Assembly: GCA_023249255.1 (NCBI GenBank)
Contig: JAHFCY010000115.1
Coordinates: 1 to 10,000 of the forward strand
Direction of reading: 5' to 3'
DNA from: Candidatus Lindowiibacteriota bacterium
Lineage (GTDB): Bacteria; Lindowbacteria; 2-12-FULL-62-27
DNA length: 10,000 bases
Below the pieces are notes generated by a model, which did not search any database, was not told the origin of the DNA, and worked only from the letters and a program-made list of their open reading frames with translations. The translations under genes were made by a program, and so were the position numbers. Positions 237 through 10,000 of this stretch are shown in pieces; the stretch's first letter is position 1, and the number at the start of each line of letters is the position of its first letter.

Positions 237-818
237 TCAATGGTGGGCGGGACGTTTTCGGTAATCGATCACACGGGCTGGATTGCCGACCACGATCGCG
301 TAGGGTTCGACATCCTGCGTGATCACGCTCGCTGTGCCGATCACGGCGCCTTTGCCGATCCGAACGCCTTTGCCGATGAAGACATTCGATCCGATCAGGA
401 CGTCATCCTCGATCACGGTCTTTGCGCCGACGCGTCCCTGCGTCGACACGGGGTTGTCCGGATTGGAGATCACGTGGTCGTCCGACATGATCGTCGTCCG
501 GTGTCCCATCATCACGCAGTTGCCGATCTCGATCCCGCCGTACGCGTTGAAATGGCAGTACTCGTTGATACAGCAGTCCCGGCCGATGGACAGTCGCCAC
601 GGATAATATACCGTGAGGCCGTCGCGAATCCACGGAACGCCGGAGCAGGCCATCCGCGCGCCGAAGAGTTTCAAAACCGCATGCCGCAGGATGTCGCCGA
701 TTGGAGAAGGGAGAAATTTGACAAGACCGAATAGGTTATGAAATACACCCATCCGGATCAGTTCCCCGCGGGACATGTTTGACAAAGGTGCGCCGGTTAC
801 CGTGTCGGCCGCAGTCAT
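237..818 (-). CDS. Hexapeptide-repeat (left-handed beta-helix) O-acyltransferase
   Basis: This 193-residue protein belongs to the maltose/galactoside O-acetyltransferase-like branch of the left-handed beta-helix acyltransferases. These trimers move an acyl group from CoA or ACP to a hydroxyl or amino group of a sugar or similar acceptor. Residues 1-70 form a helical N-terminal arm. From about residue 75 to 175 runs of [LIV]-G-x-x-x-x repeats appear, for example around LSIGRDC, IEIGNCV, TVIEDDVLIGSNVFIGKGVRIGKGAVIG. His115, in the SDDHVIS segment of the loop after the first coils, sits where this family has its catalytic histidine. The protein ends with the typical VVGNPARVIDYR segment. The ATG directly follows the stop of the upstream gene (TAG-ATG), so it is probably translationally coupled and is the last gene of the operon. 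Family assignment is firm; the acceptor is unknown. Given the FkbH and ACP neighbours, an ACP-borne acyl donor is possible (inference). Confidence 0.93.
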   Translation of the reverse strand: MTAADTVTGAPLSNMSRGELIRMGVFHNLFGLVKFLPSPIGDILRHAVLKLFGARMACSGVPWIRDGLTVYYPWRLSIGRDCCINEYCHFNAYGGIEIGNCVMMGHRTTIMSDDHVISNPDNPVSTQGRVGAKTVIEDDVLIGSNVFIGKGVRIGKGAVIGTASVITQDVEPYAIVVGNPARVIDYRKRPAHH

Positions 819-1283
819 CTATTTTCTCGTCTCTTTTTGATTAATCAGAATTTTCTGCAATGCCCGCACGTCCGCCTTGTCCTTGCGGCGCGGCGTCTGA
901 CTTTTCGTCTGAATGAGGTCATGCAGGTCCGCGATTCGGACGGTCGTCCCCAGATATCGTGCTTTCCGCACGCGAGTCCAGGAGGCGGTTGAGAATCCTT
1001 CCTGCCATTTCAGGACGTCCAGTACCAAATCTCCGATCATAAATCGGGACACTTTCTGAGATTCAAACAGCTCCATTTCCATCGTCGAAGGCAATTGAAA
1101 TGTGGCGCCCATCCGTCTCAACGCTTTAAAAAATCTCATGGTATTGGCGCGGTCGGAAGACAGGATGATATCGATATCCATTGTCACAACCTGAAGCCCG
1201 TAATAAACCGCCGCCGTCCGGCCCAATACGCAGTACCGAACCTTTTCCGCCGCCAGCGATCTGAAAATTGTTGCGAACTTCAT
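819..1283 (-). CDS. Minimal nucleotidyltransferase (DUF6036/AbiEii-like fold)
   Basis: A 154-residue protein with the pol-beta-type nucleotidyltransferase signature of stand-alone minimal nucleotidyltransferases. The N-terminal stretch EKVRYCVLGRTAAVYYG is followed by T-x-D-I-D (D36 and D38, the metal-binding pair). A later strand, LVLDVLKW, can supply the third acidic residue (D88 or D84 by count). The C-terminal IADLHDLIQTKSQTPRRKDKADVRAL segment is the typical LIxxK...R.KDxxD signature of the DUF6036-type group. The usual Gly-Gly or Gly-Ser of the nucleotide-binding turn is Gly21-Arg22 here, which may alter or weaken catalysis. Relatives are often toxin-like or of unknown role, and some modify tRNA or proteins. 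Its ATG overlaps the stop of the tiny gene before it by four bases (ATGA), so the two are probably made together. The substrate is unknown. Confidence 0.85.
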   Translation of the reverse strand: MKFATIFRSLAAEKVRYCVLGRTAAVYYGLQVVTMDIDIILSSDRANTMRFFKALRRMGATFQLPSTMEMELFESQKVSRFMIGDLVLDVLKWQEGFSTASWTRVRKARYLGTTVRIADLHDLIQTKSQTPRRKDKADVRALQKILINQKETRK

Positions 1284-1489
1284 CTGCGCCGACGGCCGAC
1301 GACGGCCCTTGGGGATAATTGCCGGCGAATCGCAAGGATCGTCTCAACCCGGTCAAATAGAATCTCGAGCCGTTTTTCAGGACGAAGAGACAAGAACCAA
1401 CGATTCAATGCGGCAGGGGTTGCCGGCATGACAAGATGGCCGAATGTCGGTGACGGAGGGTGCGCGGCGGCGCGGTGATTTCGTCTCAT
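1280..1489 (-). CDS. Tiny basic protein, probable partner of the nucleotidyltransferase
   Basis: A 69-residue ORF held between its neighbours by four-base ATGA overlaps at both ends: its start overlaps the reductase stop, and its stop overlaps the nucleotidyltransferase start. That double overlap is the main evidence that it is a real gene. A helical core (ALNRWFLSLRPEKRLEILF, continuing to about residue 58) resembles the short 'W..LSPEERL' proteins that in my recollection often precede DUF6036-type nucleotidyltransferases. The C-terminus is strongly basic (GRRRR). The first 20 residues are low-complexity and rich in H, A and P. An internal ATG (Met21, at 1429) would give a 49-residue protein containing the whole conserved-looking part. 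No domain could be named with confidence. An antitoxin or accessory role is inference only. Confidence 0.6.
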   Translation of the reverse strand: MRRNHRAAAHPPSPTFGHLVMPATPAALNRWFLSLRPEKRLEILFDRVETILAIRRQLSPRAVVGRRRR

Positions 1490-2553
1490 CGCATCACCAT
1501 CCCGCCGTCGAGCGGGATATCGGCGCCGGTCATGTACTCGCTCGGATCGGTCGCCAGATGCGCGATCGCTTCGCCGACTTCTTGAGGCTCAAGCAATCTG
1601 CCGATCGGCGTGCGGCGCGTGTAGTCGTCCAAGACCGCGGGGTCCATCCCGCGTGAAAGCGCCGTGCGCGTGATCGTCGGCGAAATCGCGTTCACGCGAA
1701 TGTTGTGTTTCGCCCACTCGCGCGCCATCGACCGCGTGAGACCCGCGAGCGCCGATTTGGCCGCCACATACGCAGCCAATCCTTCGGGCGGAACGCCGTG
1801 AATGAAAACGGAAAGAACGTTGATGATGACAGCACTGCCGGATGATTTCAGCAGGGGAAAAAAAGCCTGCGACAGACGAAGCGGAGCGAGCACGTGCGCG
1901 TCAAGTTGTCGTTGAAGTTCCGCGGCCGACAGCGACTCAACCGGCGCCGGCGCGATCGGCGGCGCGGCGTTGTTGACGAGAACGTCGAGCCGGCCCCACC
2001 GTTTCGTCACGGCGTCTACGAGCGTTCCAAGGGAGGCAGGATTCGCAAGATCGGCCTGAACCACGATCGCATCCGCGCCGTCTTTCACGAGCGACTCCTG
2101 GACATACTTCGCCGCGCCTTCCTGCGAATGAAAATGCACGACGACGGCGTAGCCGCGGCGCGCAAGCGAACGGGCAGTCTCGGCGCCGATCCCGCGGCTC
2201 GACCCTGTGACCAGCGCGACCGGTTTCACGCCGGCAGGCAGACGTTTGGGAGCCAACCGCGAAAACGCAAGAGACTTCCCCCCATCCCCACCTTCCCCCG
2301 CAAGGGGGGAAGGAGCATGAACCGGGGCGACGCGGGCCTCACCGACAATTTTCTCGAGATCACCCAGTGTCCGGATCGACACGACCTGCGACGTCGAAAG
2401 TTGAACGCCGTAGGCCGACTCGATCTGCGTGACGAGCAAAAGATGCGCCAGCGACGTCCACGCCTTGCACGTCTCCCGCGACACGTCCGGGATGACTTCG
2501 TCGGCTTTCAGTTTGAGAACATTTGATACGATGGTTTTCAGTCGTGTGTCCAT
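1486..2553 (-). CDS. Acyl carrier protein fused to short-chain dehydrogenase/reductase
   Basis: A 355-residue two-domain protein. Residues 1-75 are an acyl carrier domain: a helix, then the prosthetic-group segment AWTSLAHLLL with Ser34 in the phosphopantetheine position (T-S-L replaces the usual D-S-L), then VTQIESAYGVQL. Residues 76-109 are a linker. Residues 110-355 are a FabG-like reductase with cofactor motif TGSSRGIG (116-123), NNAA (194-197), catalytic Ser248 and Y262-x-x-x-K266, and a C-terminus of the MTGADIPLDGG type. The SDR would reduce a keto group, or oxidise a hydroxyl, with NAD(P)H, plausibly on an acyl group bound to its own ACP. The gene follows the FkbH gene by 38 bp. FkbH-like proteins charge dedicated ACPs, so this ACP is the likely partner (inference). 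No clear Shine-Dalgarno precedes the ATG. The linker is encoded by a palindromic repeat, listed separately. Confidence 0.92.
   Translation of the reverse strand: MDTRLKTIVSNVLKLKADEVIPDVSRETCKAWTSLAHLLLVTQIESAYGVQLSTSQVVSIRTLGDLEKIVGEARVAPVHAPSPLAGEGGDGGKSLAFSRLAPKRLPAGVKPVALVTGSSRGIGAETARSLARRGYAVVVHFHSQEGAAKYVQESLVKDGADAIVVQADLANPASLGTLVDAVTKRWGRLDVLVNNAAPPIAPAPVESLSAAELQRQLDAHVLAPLRLSQAFFPLLKSSGSAVIINVLSVFIHGVPPEGLAAYVAAKSALAGLTRSMAREWAKHNIRVNAISPTITRTALSRGMDPAVLDDYTRRTPIGRLLEPQEVGEAIAHLATDPSEYMTGADIPLDGGMVMR
2291..2313. repeat. REP-like GC-rich palindrome inside the ACP-SDR coding region
   Basis: A 9-bp perfect stem, CCTTCCCCC (2291-2299) against GGGGGAAGG (2305-2313), encloses a 5-base loop. 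On the minus strand it is translated in frame as PSPLAGEGG (residues 81-89). The PSPLAGEG peptide is a familiar product of dispersed palindromes with the core CCCCCGCAAGGGGG in many bacterial genomes (recalled knowledge, not searched). It sits exactly in the interdomain linker of the fusion. Confidence 0.75.
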
Positions 2554-2569
2554 GGCGGTCAGATTGTCA

Positions 2570-2590
2570 GTTCAAAGTTCAAAGTTCAAG
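2570..2590. repeat. Three 7-bp tandem units (GTTCAAA)
   Basis: Units GTTCAAA (2570-2576), GTTCAAA (2577-2583) and GTTCAAG (2584-2590) fill more than half of the 38-bp gap between the FkbH stop and the ACP-SDR start. The unit resembles a short dispersed repeat seen in many environmental genomes. It leaves no room for a normal promoter and no obvious Shine-Dalgarno for the downstream gene. Confidence 0.7.
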
Positions 2591-2591
2591 G

Positions 2592-4367
2592 TTATGCTGG
2601 CCATTCAACGCGAATGTAGGGTACGGGCGGAAATGACCGGCCAGCAAGGGACATCCCGTATTTCGTCGCTACGGTTGGGCCATTGTCCGCCTCAAAGCCG
2701 TTGTCGTCATAAAAAGAGTTTGTCTGCATGTTTTTTTCCGACGGAATGTATTCGGCCGTGACCGATTGAGCGCCCGACTTTTTCAAATCCGCAAGAATCT
2801 CCTGCAAAAAGGCCCGTTCGACCTGACGACCGATCACCCGGCAACTCATGAAAAAATTTTCGATTTTGTAAATTTGTAAATCTCCGTCCCCATTGCTTGC
2901 ATTGCGCCCATTGCGTCGCACCACCGCCACGCCCACCAACCCGCTGTCGCCAAGCCGGTCACCGACCTTCATCCAGTACACCCGGCCGCCTACTTTTGTG
3001 ATTGCTGCAAGATCGCCCTCCGTGTATCGTCTCGTCGTCAGATTGAACTGGTTGGTCCTCTGCGACAACTGCGCGACTCGCGCCAGATTCTCGTCGTCTT
3101 TCGATTTCAAAAAACCGACCGTCATCACCGTCTCGATCGACCGCAAATAATCTTCGATCGTCCCCGTAGATTCCTGAAGCTCCCTGCGATTCTTCTCCTC
3201 CTCATACATCCGCGCGCGATTTTTGTCCTCCGCCGTCAGCGTCGAGGCTTCGAAACACCGAAGACCCTGCAGATATCTCGGCCACCAGGCCGGATCGGCC
3301 GGCGGATCGAGGACGGTCACGGACGGCAAAAGTCTTCGTACCAGTTCCCGTTCGTTGGGATTATCGTCGAGGAATACAAGCGAATCGACGCCGATGTTGA
3401 GCGTTTTGGCGATCGACCGAATCATCTGGTCCTTGGTCTGCCAGCCGATTTCCATGGCGGCGAAATGTTCGCGCCGCAAGACCTGGTGCGGGTGTTTGTC
3501 GATGACCTCGATCGCATCCGGCGGATTATTTTTACTTGCGACCGCCAGAAGAACTCCTTTCGCGCGCAACGCCAGCGCCGCTTCCTGAATCGCGCGATAC
3601 ACGTTGCCGGGAGGCTGAACATCCAACTGGATGCCGTTCATTCCCTCCTCGCCGACGATCCCGCCCCATAGGGTTTCGTCCAGATCCAGGACGAGACATT
3701 TTTTCCGCAACCCAAGCCGCTCATAGACGAACGCCAGAATTTCCTCGGCCAACTGCGGAACCATTTCGGGCGCAATGAGCATGCCGGCGAGAAACTCGTG
3801 TTTCGGATCGACCACGCGCGAGGCGCCCCAGCGGCCCACCCAGGTGTCCATGTCGAGAATCCGCATCCCGGGATGTGCGGCCGCGAGGTCATACAACCGG
3901 TCGTTCCAGTCGCGGATGGTTTTTGTTTTCTGCCGGTCGCCGCAGGCGCAGAATAGATTGGAGACGATAAACAGCGCGTCGGGCAGAGCCGCCTCGTGCG
4001 TTCGTACTATCCGCTCAACTTCCTGAAACCCCGCATCGGTTGCCGATTCGCGCGGATTCAGGAGCAGTACAGTAACCGCGGGCTTGGCCGCGTAATGCGC
4101 ACCGGAGGGCGTGAGCAATTCCTGCCGGAACTGGTTGAACCCGCCGGCAAACACGCGAGGCGCGCGACCGTAGCGCAGAAGTTTGGCCTCGAGGACATGC
4201 ACAAGAAAATCGGTCGTGTAGGCCGCTTGAACGCCGATACCGATATCCGCGTTTTCGGTCCCGCGCGCGATCGCCTCAAGACGCCCGGCGTGTTCGGTCC
4301 GGTACGCGATCCAGTCCCAGATCGGCGGCTGGACGTGTGCGTTAAAGGAATGCTGAAGAGTATTCAT
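2592..4367 (-). CDS. FkbH-like HAD-IIIC family protein (glyceryl-ACP-forming type)
   Basis: A 591-residue full-length member of the FkbH family. Characterised relatives take 1,3-bisphosphoglycerate, remove the phosphate and load the glyceryl group on an ACP. Residues 1-215 are the N-terminal SGNH-like region, with the family segment GGFNQFRQELLTP. HAD motif I is D228-L-D230-E-T232-LWGG, motif II is S278-K-N, and motif III is the D334-D335-N-P-N-E segment. Residues 400-591 are the GNAT-like C-terminal domain, with TNQFNLTTRRY (438-448) and MSCRVIGRQVE (507-517). The main active-site residues are therefore present. The next gene encodes an ACP-reductase fusion, the expected partner. A short Asn/Gly-rich segment near residues 485-495 looks like a repeat expansion. 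No convincing Shine-Dalgarno precedes the ATG. It starts 62 bp after the coiled-coil gene with no visible terminator between them, so it may be co-transcribed with it. The actual acyl group is inferred from the family. Confidence 0.93.
   Translation of the reverse strand: MNTLQHSFNAHVQPPIWDWIAYRTEHAGRLEAIARGTENADIGIGVQAAYTTDFLVHVLEAKLLRYGRAPRVFAGGFNQFRQELLTPSGAHYAAKPAVTVLLLNPRESATDAGFQEVERIVRTHEAALPDALFIVSNLFCACGDRQKTKTIRDWNDRLYDLAAAHPGMRILDMDTWVGRWGASRVVDPKHEFLAGMLIAPEMVPQLAEEILAFVYERLGLRKKCLVLDLDETLWGGIVGEEGMNGIQLDVQPPGNVYRAIQEAALALRAKGVLLAVASKNNPPDAIEVIDKHPHQVLRREHFAAMEIGWQTKDQMIRSIAKTLNIGVDSLVFLDDNPNERELVRRLLPSVTVLDPPADPAWWPRYLQGLRCFEASTLTAEDKNRARMYEEEKNRRELQESTGTIEDYLRSIETVMTVGFLKSKDDENLARVAQLSQRTNQFNLTTRRYTEGDLAAITKVGGRVYWMKVGDRLGDSGLVGVAVVRRNGRNASNGDGDLQIYKIENFFMSCRVIGRQVERAFLQEILADLKKSGAQSVTAEYIPSEKNMQTNSFYDDNGFEADNGPTVATKYGMSLAGRSFPPVPYIRVEWPA
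2891..2917. repeat. Three 9-bp units (CATTGCNNN) inside the FkbH-like gene
   Basis: The units start at 2891, 2900 and 2909 and each begins CATTGC. They encode the R-N-G/R-N-A/S-N-G pattern of a loop in the C-terminal GNAT-like domain. Immediately beside them the octamer TTGTAAAT is repeated twice (about 2867-2882). Together they mark a local low-complexity insertion between two better-conserved segments. Confidence 0.6.
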
Positions 4368-4429: not shown

Positions 4430-5767
4430 TTATTTCTGAACGACGCGGCTTTTGCCGGATGAGGCGGGCGAGTCGATCAGCAGAGCCTGAAGGCGCTGTT
4501 TCAAACCGGCGCCGCCGACGTAGGCCCAGGTTTCGGCGACGGTCTGATATCGGTCGACCCAGAACGAGAAGTCATCATGAAGAGGCTCGACCGCGCGGAG
4601 GTATCTTTCGATGCCGCGCGATTCGGCTGTTTCGAGCGTCGTCATGTCGCGGATCGTGCCTGCAAGATTTTGAAAGAGGAATGCATAAATTGAAGTGCGG
4701 CGAGCGCCCAACGCGTCTACCCGGTCGTGCTCGGATTTCGCCGCCAGATACAGCTCCTCGGCTTTCTGGTATGTCGGCGCCCAGCGGTCATAGGCCGATT
4801 GGGCCTCGACCAGAAGCGCCGTCGCTTCCGACCGTTTGCCCTCTTCGATCAGTCTCTCCGCATCGACGAGCTTGCCGTGAGCGTTTCGCATTTCGCTCGA
4901 GAACGCTTCCGGAGACGAGAGAATCAGATGCGCCCGGAACGCGTTGATCGCCGATGCGTAGGCGGTCGGATACGCCTGAACTTCCCCTTCGATCCCCTGA
5001 AGTTCGGCTATGGCGTCGCGGACGGTCGTGAACTGCTGGCGGCGCTGGGCCAGGATCGCTGTGAGGTCGTCGATCGTTTTTCGGTCTTCTGTGAGTTGAT
5101 CGGTGAGTTTGAGATCAAACTGATAGAGGTTCGGATAAGCGAGAATTTTCTCCTGGATCGAAGCCATCACGCCGTTGGCCTCGGACACCTTCTCGAGTCC
5201 GTCAGATATCAGACTGAGGTGTTTGCCCATCTCGTCGGAGACGGCCGGAAGCGTCCGGCCTGACAGAAGCCTTGTTTTTTTCTCGTCCGCTGACGCGGCG
5301 GCGGCCAGCCGGGCGGCCCGATCCTCGAGATTCCCGACGTCCCACGCGACTTGCCGGAGCGTTTCAACCTGTTTTTGAACCTCGTGTTCGACTTCCTCGG
5401 GACTGGCCGACTCGATGCGCAGGATGTCCTGCCGCAATTTCACGATGCGATTCGAAATGGATTCGAGCGCCGGATCGCCGGCGATTTTGTTTCGGATCCG
5501 GTAGTCGGCGATTTCGCCGGAGAGGACGTCAAGTCCGCGCAAAAGTACGCGGGCCTGTTTGTTGTCGCCGGGGGCGAGTTTGAAAACCAGCTCGTCGAAC
5601 TGCTGGGCACGCGTGGCGAAATGGATGAGGTCGAGGTTGGTGTCTTGCGGCGCGGCGGCGGCGGACAGACGGATCACGCCCGGACACACCCAGAGCAGAG
5701 CCGCGACACACACGCCGATTCCCACGATCCCCCTCGCCGTTGCGTTCGCCACCATCCGGTTCGACAT
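4430..5767 (-). CDS. Exported coiled-coil protein of unknown function
   Basis: A predicted 445-residue protein. The chosen ATG (5767) has a strong GGAGG Shine-Dalgarno five bases away and starts a clean signal peptide: hydrophobic residues about 12-35 and a likely cut in the SAAAAP segment near 36-39. The frame stays open upstream to about 6025, but that extension crosses the promoter and the divergent gene and is not believed. No lipobox is seen. The mature part is almost wholly alpha-helical and charged, with heptad-like stretches (for example around residues 95-150 and 220-265), and has no catalytic motif I can recognise. It ends in a basic, Ser-rich tail. A periplasmic scaffold or adaptor role is guesswork. 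It is the first gene after the strong minus-strand promoter and may head the FkbH operon, as no terminator is visible in the 62-bp gap. Confidence 0.85.
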   Translation of the reverse strand: MSNRMVANATARGIVGIGVCVAALLWVCPGVIRLSAAAAPQDTNLDLIHFATRAQQFDELVFKLAPGDNKQARVLLRGLDVLSGEIADYRIRNKIAGDPALESISNRIVKLRQDILRIESASPEEVEHEVQKQVETLRQVAWDVGNLEDRAARLAAAASADEKKTRLLSGRTLPAVSDEMGKHLSLISDGLEKVSEANGVMASIQEKILAYPNLYQFDLKLTDQLTEDRKTIDDLTAILAQRRQQFTTVRDAIAELQGIEGEVQAYPTAYASAINAFRAHLILSSPEAFSSEMRNAHGKLVDAERLIEEGKRSEATALLVEAQSAYDRWAPTYQKAEELYLAAKSEHDRVDALGARRTSIYAFLFQNLAGTIRDMTTLETAESRGIERYLRAVEPLHDDFSFWVDRYQTVAETWAYVGGAGLKQRLQALLIDSPASSGKSRVVQK

Positions 5768-5772
5768 CCTGT

Positions 5773-5826: not shown

Positions 5827-5839
5827 GAATTTCTTGACA
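5821..5839. promoter_or_regulatory. 19-bp palindrome joining two divergent -35 boxes; candidate operator
   Basis: The sequence TGACAAGAATTTCTTGACA reads the same on both strands except for one mismatched pair (5823/5837) and the central base. Its inner 13 bp (CAAGAA-T-TTCTTG) are a perfect inverted repeat. Its left end is the -35 of the minus-strand promoter and its right end is the -35 of the plus-strand promoter. A regulator bound here would block or activate both. Part of the symmetry follows simply from two -35 boxes facing apart, but the inner AAGAA/TTCTT arms do not. Confidence 0.55.
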
Positions 5840-5862
5840 TTCCATCCCCCGCGAATGACAAT
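5834..5862 (+). promoter_or_regulatory. Sigma70-like promoter for the SpoVG-like gene
   Basis: A perfect TTGACA (5834-5839) is followed after 17 bases by GACAAT (5857-5862), which matches the -10 consensus at four of six positions. It lies about 38 bases upstream of the proposed ATG at 5901. Confidence 0.6.
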
Positions 5863-5900: not shown

Positions 5901-6599
5901 ATGACCGATAGGATGAAGGGAATCCCGCGAAGGCCATGGATGGGCGGGAGCGGGATGACAAACAATGCAACGCACGCAACCGCCGCTTTTTCATTCTGCG
6001 CTTTTCTGACATTCCTGTGTTTCATTCCAATTTCTCACGCCGCATCCGACACCGGCGACAAGGCCGCAGACAAGCAAGCTGCGGCAAAACCGTTGGAGAC
6101 ACCGGCCTCATCCGGCGGACTGACCATCACCGATATCCGCAAGGAGGGCGACGTGTATTCCGCGACGTTGAACGGCTCGATCGTCCTGAAAAATCTGACC
6201 CTCAAAGACGGTAAACTCTTCTTTCCGCAAACCGGGGGAAAAGACGACAAGCAATACTTTGCCGTCTATCTGGATGACCGGAGTATCGCCGATCAGATCA
6301 AGGAGGCAATCAAGGCTGGGAAGGCGAGCGGGAAAGGCAAGCCGGCGGACATCACCGTCACGGGGATTAAATGGAAGGAATTTGGAGGCGAAGGAAAGCT
6401 CAAGGGATTCGCCGACGTGACATTCAATAAGGCTGTTACAGTCAAGGGCTGTAAACTGTTGGAGAGCAAAAATGGCCTGTGGCTGGCCTGGCCGAGTGTC
6501 AAAAAGGGCAAGGAATATGACGAATTGGTGTTTGTCGTGGACAAGGCTTTGCGTGACAGGGTATTCGAAGCAGTGAAGAAGGAGGCAGGGACGAAGTAG
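5901..6599 (+). CDS. Exported protein with two tandem SpoVG-like domains
   Basis: A predicted 232-residue protein. The ATG at 5901 is preceded by GAAAGGGG eight bases away. A later ATG at 5955 is possible but would lose the K/RR residues of the signal-peptide n-region. Residues about 28-47 (AAFSFCAFLTFLCFIPISHA) form a signal-peptide core with an SHA cut site. After a linker, domain 1 (about 74-138) has ITDIR, a middle strand pair and a C-terminal helix (DRSIADQIKEAIKAG). Domain 2 (about 151-226) shows the SpoVG pattern more clearly: ITVTGIKWK, LKGFADVTFNKAVTVKGCKLL, NGLWLAWPSVKKG, then a final helix RDRVFEAVKKE. Known SpoVG proteins are about 85-100 residues, single-domain, cytoplasmic and bind nucleic acid. 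A duplicated and apparently secreted form is unusual. Its role outside the cytoplasm is unknown. It is divergent to the coiled-coil gene and shares its promoter region. Confidence 0.85.
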   Translation: MTDRMKGIPRRPWMGGSGMTNNATHATAAFSFCAFLTFLCFIPISHAASDTGDKAADKQAAAKPLETPASSGGLTITDIRKEGDVYSATLNGSIVLKNLTLKDGKLFFPQTGGKDDKQYFAVYLDDRSIADQIKEAIKAGKASGKGKPADITVTGIKWKEFGGEGKLKGFADVTFNKAVTVKGCKLLESKNGLWLAWPSVKKGKEYDELVFVVDKALRDRVFEAVKKEAGTK

Positions 6600-6857: not shown

Positions 6858-6868
6858 TGGAATGAATG

Positions 6869-6898
6869 TTGCTTTAATATATATCCTATATATATATA
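6869..6898 (+). promoter_or_regulatory. Possible promoter for the secreted PLD gene
   Basis: TTGCTT (6869-6874) is followed at 16-18 bases by TATATA (6891-6896 or 6893-6898), inside a TA-alternating run. It is about 50 bases upstream of the ATG at 6949. The low-complexity sequence makes the exact -10 uncertain. Confidence 0.35.
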
Positions 6899-6948
6899 AG
6901 GCGTGGCGTGTCGGTTGCCCGATTTATACCTGTTCTAGGTACGGCATC

Positions 6949-9900
6949 ATGAATTCGGGCGGAGACGTAGAAGTGGGGTTCCTTAAAAACAATGGCGGCG
7001 CTCAAAAAGGCTGTCATTCAAATAATGTGCTTCGCGGGTGGATCAGGGTTGGGGTGGGTTTAGCTCTTTTCATTCTCTCGAATGTGGTTTCAATCCCCCC
7101 TGCCGAATCTGCGCCCTGGTGGTGGGCCAATTTCACCATCGGCGACGGCGGGTCGGTCAACCCCAGCACGTCATTCGAACGTTGGGTCATGCAGTTTATC
7201 AATTCCGCGCAAAATTCAGACACCGTCTACATCGCGTCATTCACGTGGGGCACAGGAACGAACGAGCCGATCAATGGGACGGCCGGCATCAACAACCTGT
7301 ATCTGGGCCGGCAGAGCGTACCGGGTGCGGCGCCGGTGCGGGTGATTGCGGACGGAGACGACCTGGCGGACATCAACGGGACAAAGCTTGCGGCGGTGCC
7401 GATGGTCGCATCACCGGTCAATTCGTCGTCAGCCACGCACAACAAAGTGATCACGCTGGGCAGTCGAGCCATGATGACGGGGTCGGCGAATTTCACGGCC
7501 GGCGCGTATTCCAACCAGCCGAACAACATGGTCATCGTCCGGGTCCCGGCCGTTGCACAGGCTTACCTCAACGAGTTGGACGACGAATTCAACAACGTCG
7601 CATTCATCGAAAACATCCCCTCGCCCCAGAACCTCTTCTCCTCACCCAACGGCGACCGGATCGAAGTTTTTTTCGCTCCGGACGACAACGGAAACATCAG
7701 CCTCGCGCCGTACTCCGCCGGGTCAGCTCTGAAGGACGTCATCAAGTACAGAATGGCGAACGCGAATGAATCCGTATTCTACATGATCAACCAGTTCGGC
7801 ATGCAGGCCGAGTTAGCCAACGCTCTGGCGGCGGCCTCATCCCCGTCGGTCACCGTTGAAGGCTGGTACGACGTGGACGCCACCGGCGCGGCCAACGCGA
7901 TTCCGACCATCCAAGGCGACCACACGGCGCGTTCCTGGGGCGCGATGCCCACCAACGTGCAGGGGCACAACAAGGTCATGATTTTCGACATGGACATCGT
8001 GGCAACGGGATCAGCGAATTACACCTACGGATCGATGCGAAACTCGTCCGGCGCCAGTTGCAACATCGAAAACCTGATTTTGATTCATGACTTCCGCCTG
8101 GCAAGAAAATACATGGAGCAGTACCGCCGGTCGATGGCGCGTCTGCCGGCGGAAAACATCGGCCAGGCGGACAGTTTCGAGCAGACCAAGCCGGGCGCGG
8201 TGACGAACCTGACGGCGGTGGACGTGGCGGGAACGTCGCACCAGCTTCAGGTGAGCTGGACGGGGCCGAATAACAATGACCTGTCCCGGTATTACGTATT
8301 CATTTCGCCGGTTGTAATCACGTCGCAGAAAGACATCGGCGACGGACTCGACGACGACGCTGACGGATACATTGACGAGGACCCCGTGGGCGACGCCGAT
8401 GGATTTTCGAGCGGACCCGGCGCCGGCATGGCCAACGACGACGACGCGGACGGCAAGACCGACGAAGACCCGTGGATGTATCCGGAAGCGCAGGCCAAGA
8501 ATCAGGCGGCGAACGCAAGCGTGACGACTATCCTGTCCACGGTCAACGCCGGCGACGTCCTTCAGGACAACACAAACTACTGGATCGCCGTCGTGGCGGT
8601 GGACAAGCACGGCAACGAAGGTCCGGTGTCGATCGTGGGTCCGGTGCAGAGTCTTCCGTCGGCGCCGGGCGCCCAGCCGGCGGCAAGCGTGAAGTTCGAC
8701 GTCGGCGCGCCGGACACGGTATCGGCGGCGTCAACGTTGGATCTGAAGGTCGGCAATACCCTGGGCGCGGCGTTGTCGATCAAGAAAGTCTCGGTGGATC
8801 TCGGATCAGCGGCGAACAGTGAAGTCGCGGTGGCCGGCCAGACGCCTCCGTCGAACTGGTCGGTGATCAAGGCCGGAAATGTGCTGACCTACACAGCCGG
8901 CGCGGTTGCGGACTACATCGATCCGGGCGAAACGCTGTCGTTCAAAATCGCGGTGACGAACGCGCCGAACACAGGGCCGACCTCGCCACTTCTGGTTTCG
9001 ACAACAGACGCCAACAACATCGTGATCAGCGGCCTGAACGCCGGATTTGTGACCGTCGCAACGGCCCCGCCGCCGGCGCCGCCCGGCGCGACGAACAACG
9101 TGACGGCGGTCTCCGCCACCGACGGCGTCAACACCATCAACACGTTCACAGGCGCGGCGAAACTTGTGAAAACAAACATCACCGTGAATTACACCCTGCA
9201 AAGTGCAACCGCAAATCCGACTTCGATCTGGTACGACGTGAACAAAAACCCGGACGGACCGGGCGGGTCGGCCACGGACAGACAGATATCAGCGGGCGGC
9301 GCCGGGAGCCAATTTTCGGCGGTGATTCCGGGCGCGACGGATTCAGCGATTTTGAACGGCGCGGAGGTTCGGTTTTTAGTGCAGGTGGGAACGGAAACGT
9401 ACACCAACGGCGGGGCGTTTTACAAATTCACGATCGACAACGCGGTGACCGTGCCGGGTGGATTATCCATAGTCAGCGCCGGGTTCAACGACATCACGGT
9501 GGGATGGACGCCGATCGCCGACGCTGATTTTCTGCAATACGACATTTTTTATTCAGCGACGCCGACGATCACGCAGGCCACTCCATCGATCACCGTCACA
9601 AACCGGACCCAGTCCAGTCTTCAGATTCCCGGGCTGGCGACGTTTACGACGTACTATTTTGCGATCCAGGCCCGGGACGTGTTGGGCAACGTGAGCGGGC
9701 TTTCGGCGACGGTGACGGGCGCAACCAGGCAGGGCACGAACGTCACGGTGAACAACGCATCGGACGGGCGGATCCAGATCACGCAGTTTGACGGATCGGG
9801 GACGCTGACCGACAACGCGATCACGGTATCGTTCACGCTCGACAAACAACCGGCCGGCGCATCGGACGTTCAGCTCTGGTACGATGTGGGCAACAACCCG

Positions 9901-10000
9901 GACGGCCCGTCTGGATCGAACCCGGAGGACCGCCAGATTTTCGGAGCGGGATCGGGATTGAGCTGGCAGGCGGTGATACCGGGAGCGGACGCGGAGATCG
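6949..10000 (+). CDS. Large secreted phospholipase D-superfamily protein with FN3, Ca-loop and repeat modules (3' end beyond the window)
   Basis: The frame is open for 1017 codons and runs off the window. ATG 6949 has a modest AGG nine bases upstream. GTG 6973 (with a GGAG site) and GTG 7027 are alternatives. A signal peptide (about residues 27-55, numbering from 6949) ends in PPAESA before PWWW. Residues about 66-400 hold two PLD-like halves. The first has H164-N-K166 and GSANF but Gly171 in place of the Asp of HxK(x)4D. The second has an intact H340-N-K342-x4-D347 plus GSANY. Family members hydrolyse phosphodiester bonds of lipids or nucleic acids. Residues about 415-565 are an FN3 domain interrupted at 465-508 by two DxDxDG loops resembling calcium-binding loops. 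About 575-700 is Ig/CARDB-like. From about 716 a roughly 215-residue module (WYDV-containing part plus FN3) repeats, and the window ends in its second copy. The likely location is the cell surface or medium. The substrate is unknown. Confidence 0.88.
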   Translation, partial: MNSGGDVEVGFLKNNGGAQKGCHSNNVLRGWIRVGVGLALFILSNVVSIPPAESAPWWWANFTIGDGGSVNPSTSFERWVMQFINSAQNSDTVYIASFTWGTGTNEPINGTAGINNLYLGRQSVPGAAPVRVIADGDDLADINGTKLAAVPMVASPVNSSSATHNKVITLGSRAMMTGSANFTAGAYSNQPNNMVIVRVPAVAQAYLNELDDEFNNVAFIENIPSPQNLFSSPNGDRIEVFFAPDDNGNISLAPYSAGSALKDVIKYRMANANESVFYMINQFGMQAELANALAAASSPSVTVEGWYDVDATGAANAIPTIQGDHTARSWGAMPTNVQGHNKVMIFDMDIVATGSANYTYGSMRNSSGASCNIENLILIHDFRLARKYMEQYRRSMARLPAENIGQADSFEQTKPGAVTNLTAVDVAGTSHQLQVSWTGPNNNDLSRYYVFISPVVITSQKDIGDGLDDDADGYIDEDPVGDADGFSSGPGAGMANDDDADGKTDEDPWMYPEAQAKNQAANASVTTILSTVNAGDVLQDNTNYWIAVVAVDKHGNEGPVSIVGPVQSLPSAPGAQPAASVKFDVGAPDTVSAASTLDLKVGNTLGAALSIKKVSVDLGSAANSEVAVAGQTPPSNWSVIKAGNVLTYTAGAVADYIDPGETLSFKIAVTNAPNTGPTSPLLVSTTDANNIVISGLNAGFVTVATAPPPAPPGATNNVTAVSATDGVNTINTFTGAAKLVKTNITVNYTLQSATANPTSIWYDVNKNPDGPGGSATDRQISAGGAGSQFSAVIPGATDSAILNGAEVRFLVQVGTETYTNGGAFYKFTIDNAVTVPGGLSIVSAGFNDITVGWTPIADADFLQYDIFYSATPTITQATPSITVTNRTQSSLQIPGLATFTTYYFAIQARDVLGNVSGLSATVTGATRQGTNVTVNNASDGRIQITQFDGSGTLTDNAITVSFTLDKQPAGASDVQLWYDVGNNPDGPSGSNPEDRQIFGAGSGLSWQAVIPGADAEI

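Follow-up and report, generated by a model that had tools for sequence, protein, structure and literature searches.

An exported protein with two SpoVG-fold domains is conserved in at least five bacterial phyla

SpoVG is a small cytoplasmic regulator that binds DNA or RNA. In S. aureus SpoVG, a basic K/R doublet following the PS motif (K50-R51) is required for DNA binding, and the protein behaves as a tetramer (PMC3688583); B. subtilis SpoVG is dimeric in the crystal (PMC4959528). ComEA is a DNA-binding protein that is exported or anchored in the membrane. Endomicrobium endosymbionts of flagellates express competence genes, keeping and expressing comEC without a complete pilus, and the route by which DNA would cross their outer membrane is unknown (PMC8809381). 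The window analyzed here, a 10,000-nucleotide stretch of DNA from a Candidatus Lindowiibacteriota bacterium, encodes a protein that is likewise made for export and that carries two SpoVG-type domains in a single chain (double SpoVG).

The double SpoVG gene is an open reading frame on the forward strand (5901–6599), with alternative starts at GTG 5892 and ATG 5955. The protein is 232 residues in length from ATG 5901 and 214 from ATG 5955. The motif AAGGGG lies 8 nt before the start at 5901, which opens a basic n-region (MTDRMKGIPRRPW...); that at 5955 has GGGAG 5 nt upstream and an n-region without a basic residue. Of these two, 5901 is the better start for a signal peptide, because its n-region is basic. 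A sigma-70-like promoter (TTGACA-17-GACAAT, 5834–5862, forward strand), possibly belonging to this gene, scored 10/12 in a consensus scan; the evidence for it is weak because a comparable number of hits occurs in shuffled sequence. Farther downstream, a forward-strand gene that runs off the window (6862–9999) codes for a secreted protein in which Pfam identified PLD-like (PLDc_2) and fibronectin-III domains. Divergent from the double SpoVG gene is an open reading frame for a secreted coiled-coil protein (4430–5770, reverse strand), which matched no Pfam family; a divergent protein with a similar N-terminal sequence occupies the same place in a sister genome (L042, 4337–5677, reverse strand). 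Farther along the reverse strand (237–4367) are genes for a hexapeptide acyltransferase, an ACP-SDR fusion, and an FkbH-like protein, a group resembling a small biosynthetic island and without connection to the double SpoVG finding.

The second domain (6348–6596), which contains a GLWLAWPSVKK motif and a lone conserved cysteine, belongs to the Pfam SpoVG family (PF04026; E 1.8e-12, 47.6 bits against a cut-off of 29.6; residues 134–209 of the 214-residue form), and a sequence search of the PDB with it retrieved 2i9x (E 9e-5). The first domain (6117–6335) is more diverged. It had no match in a Pfam search, and in hhalign its family profile aligns with that of ordinary SpoVG at a probability of 96 (P 4e-9) and with that of domain 2 (P 2e-9). 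The whole protein, modeled by AlphaFold from the window sequence and ten homologues, had a mean pLDDT of 89 and a pTM of 0.84. In this model domain 2 superimposes on the SpoVG crystal structures 2i9x, 2i9z, and 2ia9 with Z of 10.3–10.8 and 1.2–1.5 Å, the best match being 2i9x (Z 10.8, 1.2 Å over 83 residues); a Foldseek search likewise gave SpoVG. When domain 1 was predicted alone (pLDDT 80), its ten best Foldseek matches in the PDB were all SpoVG chains, with VIA Z of 7.8–8.0 (8.0 to 2ia9) as compared to 4.1 for the next, unrelated fold. No solved structure other than SpoVG convincingly matched either model. By computation, the SpoVG fold is common to both domains, which are predicted to pack well in one model. 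The two halves constitute a real, diverged duplication, given the profile match of domain 1, its separate model, and a relative (L119) in which Pfam SpoVG matches two stretches of one protein. A chance duplication was also considered, and was ruled out by the profile comparison and by the separate folding of domain 1. Against the NCBIfam equivalog for the septation regulator SpoVG (NF009749), the protein scored 35.8 bits where more than 108 are needed, and it is therefore a relative of SpoVG and not an equivalog. The cysteine lies in a central strand of domain 2 (6450–6452, Cys 166 of the 214-residue form) and is kept in 56 of 67 family members; 40 of the 67 have a single cysteine in the mature part.

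The export signal (5901–6041), read from the sequence, consists of the basic n-region, a hydrophobic core at ~5982–6032 (AAFSFCAFLTFLCFIPI), and a signal-peptidase-I type site, SHA|A. It is followed in the mature protein by a 25-residue linker rich in Ala, Lys, and Asp (6042–6116) that is unconserved in the family alignment (A1). Two sister proteins have lipoboxes (LTAC-GK and VVSC-GK) at the place of the signal-peptidase-I site. A hydrophobic segment precedes domain 1 in 66 of the 67 family members, as compared to none of 37 ordinary SpoVG proteins, and the one member lacking it is truncated at a contig end. A hydropathy script scored the segment in 62 of the 67; of its five low scorers, one was this truncated protein, and four were reread by eye and have an obvious signal peptide, the script having misplaced the start of their domain. 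Export was thus judged from hydropathy and motif rather than with SignalP. On this computational evidence, double SpoVG proteins are made for export, with the signal conserved family-wide.

The first-pass annotation had claimed a secreted, duplicated SpoVG-like protein at 5901–6599, with a second domain fitting the SpoVG pattern and the same layout in both domains. All three claims held: the export signal and two SpoVG domains are present; domain 2 is supported by Pfam, the PDB sequence search, and its fold; and the common layout is supported by the profile comparison and the separate domain 1 model. The proposal would have been refuted by structures unlike SpoVG in both domains or by homologues starting after the hydrophobic segment, and neither was the case.

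All three genomes available for the window's phylum (Lindowbacteria type) have the exported double SpoVG gene, with the homologues in the two sister genomes (L042, Candidatus Lindowbacteria; L041, a groundwater MAG) being 53–56% identical to the window protein. Most Endomicrobia and many other Elusimicrobiota families have full-length relatives, as do genomes of three further small phyla (5 of 5, 3 of 3, and 4 of 6). Additional relatives were found in genomes G214, G221, and G255/G390/G516; that in G221 has at least three SpoVG-type domains in one open frame truncated at a contig end. A single-sequence search of genome contigs had found no relatives, and these were recovered with an alignment as query; no relative was found in the viral contigs searched. 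The family spans at least five bacterial phyla, by computation. In a tree of single domains, all 67 first domains group together, albeit with weak support (0.52), and ordinary SpoVG groups with only three of the 67 second domains (support 0.90). The grouping of first domains and the separation of ordinary SpoVG from 64 of the 67 second domains are consistent with most of the family having a single origin, with the proviso that the support for the first-domain group is weak.

Genes with an HHH_3 domain (ComEA type) lie within 6 kb of double SpoVG in nine of 31 genomes, where 0.34 were expected (P ~1e-11, Poisson-binomial, with genomes treated as independent though they are related). At one locus (L113) a ComEC gene overlaps the double SpoVG gene, and metallo-β-lactamase (MBL) and ComEA genes lie on its other side. 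That ComEC (L113:2596–5865) has a staphylococcal-nuclease domain (PF00565) upstream of its Competence domain. A ComEC-like secreted MBL gene overlaps the double SpoVG gene in L111 and L112, in the order MBL, double SpoVG, 7TM, HhH; the same order recurs in L177 and L178, which were retrieved only after the MBL pattern had been noticed. Proteins with lamin-tail domains (LTD) recur among the neighbors, and PLD nuclease-like neighbors occur in L109, L110, and L118, and again in L180 and L181; the best NCBIfam matches of the PLD neighbors include the nuclease NucT, below its cut-off. At another locus, the gene for a PorV-like outer-membrane protein ending in a ComEA-type helix-hairpin-helix domain (L122:131–1582) immediately precedes a consecutive pair of double SpoVG genes.

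Neighborhoods vary by lineage; in Endomicrobiaceae the neighbors of double SpoVG include GGDEF genes but no com genes. No ComEA or ComEC gene is present in the neighborhood within the window, where the PLD gene is found instead; the organism has an adjacent pair of ComEA-type helix-hairpin-helix and ComEC genes elsewhere (G000:C157). The PLD gene had been thought probably a separate unit, a claim challenged by the finding that in each of the phylum's three genomes (G000, G001, and G002) the next same-strand gene after double SpoVG encodes a secreted PLD-domain protein, PLDc_2 lying ~1 kb away. Overall, PLDc_2 is near double SpoVG in five of 31 genomes (0.32 expected), and outside the window's phylum the association is weak (2/28, P 0.03). 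The window's genome also has a 513-residue frame (G000:C322:4739–5818) with the order PLD, helix-hairpin-helix, PLD, which links PLD and DNA-binding domains in this phylum.

A multi-pass membrane protein family of ~265 residues, with a GPHPxPL...REFxMIG motif (L111:5092–5883 and relatives, alignment A7), matched no Pfam or NCBIfam family. Its gene is directly downstream of double SpoVG in L108, L111, L112, L118, L126, L143, and L176, and close to it in L114. Among 386 sampled genomes, 17 have double SpoVG and 12 have the membrane family, eight of the latter having both (Fisher p 1e-9). In three genomes lacking double SpoVG at the threshold used (G265, G401, and G527), the membrane gene is two genes from ComEC. 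Membrane GGDEF genes overlap or adjoin double SpoVG in Endomicrobiaceae, L123, and L143. In Endomicrobiaceae the overlap involves the start of a membrane GGDEF gene, which a second GGDEF gene follows, and the order in L143 is double SpoVG, 7TM, GGDEF, GGDEF. One neighbor set has GGDEF as its most frequent family (7 of 85 proteins).

In control loci (20 stretches from the same contigs, 140 proteins), HHH_3, PLDc_2, LTD, and GGDEF were absent from the leading families. This control is coarse, since only its 25 commonest families are listed, and the enriched families were picked after the neighborhoods had been inspected. Mere co-occurrence with ComEC tells little, because ComEC is present in 33 of the 35 double SpoVG genomes checked and also in 10 of the 14 controls. 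Gene calling was mechanical, and the contigs are metagenome-assembled. The SpoVG likeness of both domains and the conservation of export are untouched by these limits of gene calling, kinship, post hoc choice, and control.

As to features for nucleic-acid binding, the second position of the doublet is K in 46 of 55 scored exported proteins, and the first is R or K in just 22 of the 55; the doublet of the window protein is V-K. Domain 2 of the exported proteins has a mean net charge of +6.4, as compared to +2.1 for ordinary SpoVG cores. In the three proteins of the window's phylum this charge is +4, 0, and +2, that is, not especially basic. The exported family has acquired tryptophans at the WxAWP loop.

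We propose that double SpoVG binds nucleic acid outside the cytoplasm, in DNA uptake or breakdown, a function inferred in the absence of binding data; it is our best reading, at slightly less than even odds. Each domain would take the place of one chain of a SpoVG dimer, the pair forming a putative covalent pseudo-dimer. The window protein would be located in the periplasm, and those of the sister genomes would be held by a lipid anchor. Nucleic acid would be bound by the basic, tryptophan-rich WxAWPSxK face of domain 2, domain 1 having turned into a structural or partner-binding half. The likeliest task would be the handling of DNA outside the cytoplasm, either holding it for ComEA/ComEC uptake or keeping it in place while the secreted PLD or nuclease proteins of adjoining genes trim it. 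In several lineages a membrane partner, either the ~265-residue protein or a membrane diguanylate cyclase, may relay the bound state to the cell. Unlike the fold and export, the binding of nucleic acid, the partner, and the pathway are all inferences. The DNA-uptake reading is supported by the ComEA, ComEC, and nuclease neighbors, the occurrence of the partner family near ComEC, and the basic average of domain 2; it is weakened by the loss of the first doublet residue, the nonbasic domain 2 in the window's phylum, and the varied neighborhoods. The first-pass annotation had suggested a new extracytoplasmic role, such as binding extracellular nucleic acid, which is consistent with the ComEA, ComEC, and nuclease neighbors and is not shown; it had also raised a possible loss of nucleic-acid binding, and one half of the doublet is indeed unconserved.

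The main rival to DNA handling is that the protein is a periplasmic sensor or adaptor in cyclic-di-GMP signaling that has lost nucleic-acid binding, its SpoVG pair binding another ligand or a membrane partner and tuning the co-encoded diguanylate cyclase. This remains possible, though we consider it less likely than DNA handling. It is favored by the overlap with membrane GGDEF genes in Endomicrobiaceae and the two GGDEF genes of L143, by the rank of GGDEF in one neighbor set and its absence from the leading control families, and by the frequent loss of the first residue of the DNA-binding doublet. However, most other lineages, including that of the window, have no adjoining GGDEF gene, and the ComEA, ComEC, and nuclease neighbors are left unexplained. 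We consider it unlikely that double SpoVG serves the structure or assembly of the cell envelope, or of a PorV/type-IX-like route of surface secretion whose gene clusters harbor it. PorV/PorP-like outer-membrane, FlgD_ig, CHU_C, and lamin-tail proteins are frequent neighbors in several Elusimicrobiota and in L109, but such neighbors were not seen in Endomicrobiaceae or in the window's phylum, and the SpoVG fold is not known to be linked to secretion.

A further objection is that the N-terminal segment reflects a wrong start, and that the protein is cytoplasmic as is other SpoVG. In its favor, the signal peptide rests on hydropathy and motif alone. This explanation is nevertheless all but excluded by the distribution of the hydrophobic segment, near-universal in the family across several phyla and absent from ordinary SpoVG, and by the lipobox variants of the sister genomes. 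A start or annotation artifact was ruled out by the conservation of the export segment.

A bolder reading, which we offer tentatively, is that a duplicated cytoplasmic regulator fold gave rise to an extracytoplasmic nucleic-acid receptor that works with the ~265-residue membrane family and with ComEA/ComEC or diguanylate cyclases, coupling capture of DNA at the surface to uptake and signaling. Its scope might extend to several little-studied phyla, among them endosymbionts in which competence genes are still expressed. Should double SpoVG prove to hold DNA, it would represent a DNA receptor of a new class and could bear on how DNA crosses the outer membrane in Endomicrobium. The work also reveals a conserved membrane protein family that has no Pfam or NCBIfam name.

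Among known systems, the overlap with GGDEF genes in Endomicrobiaceae resembles operons in which a membrane diguanylate cyclase has a periplasmic partner; this arrangement was not seen in the window or most other double SpoVG lineages, and the literature searched describes no cyclase with a SpoVG-type partner. The components of ComEA/ComEC uptake (TIGR01259 and TIGR00361) are recurrent gene neighbors of double SpoVG but have no sequence or fold relation to it, and its role in uptake is inferred. SpoVG itself (PF04026; 2IA9, 2I9X, and 2I9Z) has the same fold as both domains and belongs to the same sequence family as domain 2, and it shares with the exported protein a conserved x-P-S-x-K loop and C-terminal helix. 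Ordinary SpoVG is ~90–100 residues in length, cytoplasmic, and forms dimers or tetramers of separate chains, whereas the exported family has two domains per chain and a lone cysteine in a central strand, and its loop is a tryptophan-rich WxAWPSxK in place of xAMPSRK. No description of an exported or tandem SpoVG was found in the literature searched, and the exported double SpoVG is a real variant of a known fold that is undescribed there. As this form is conserved in at least five phyla, the SpoVG fold also leads a life beyond the cytoplasm.
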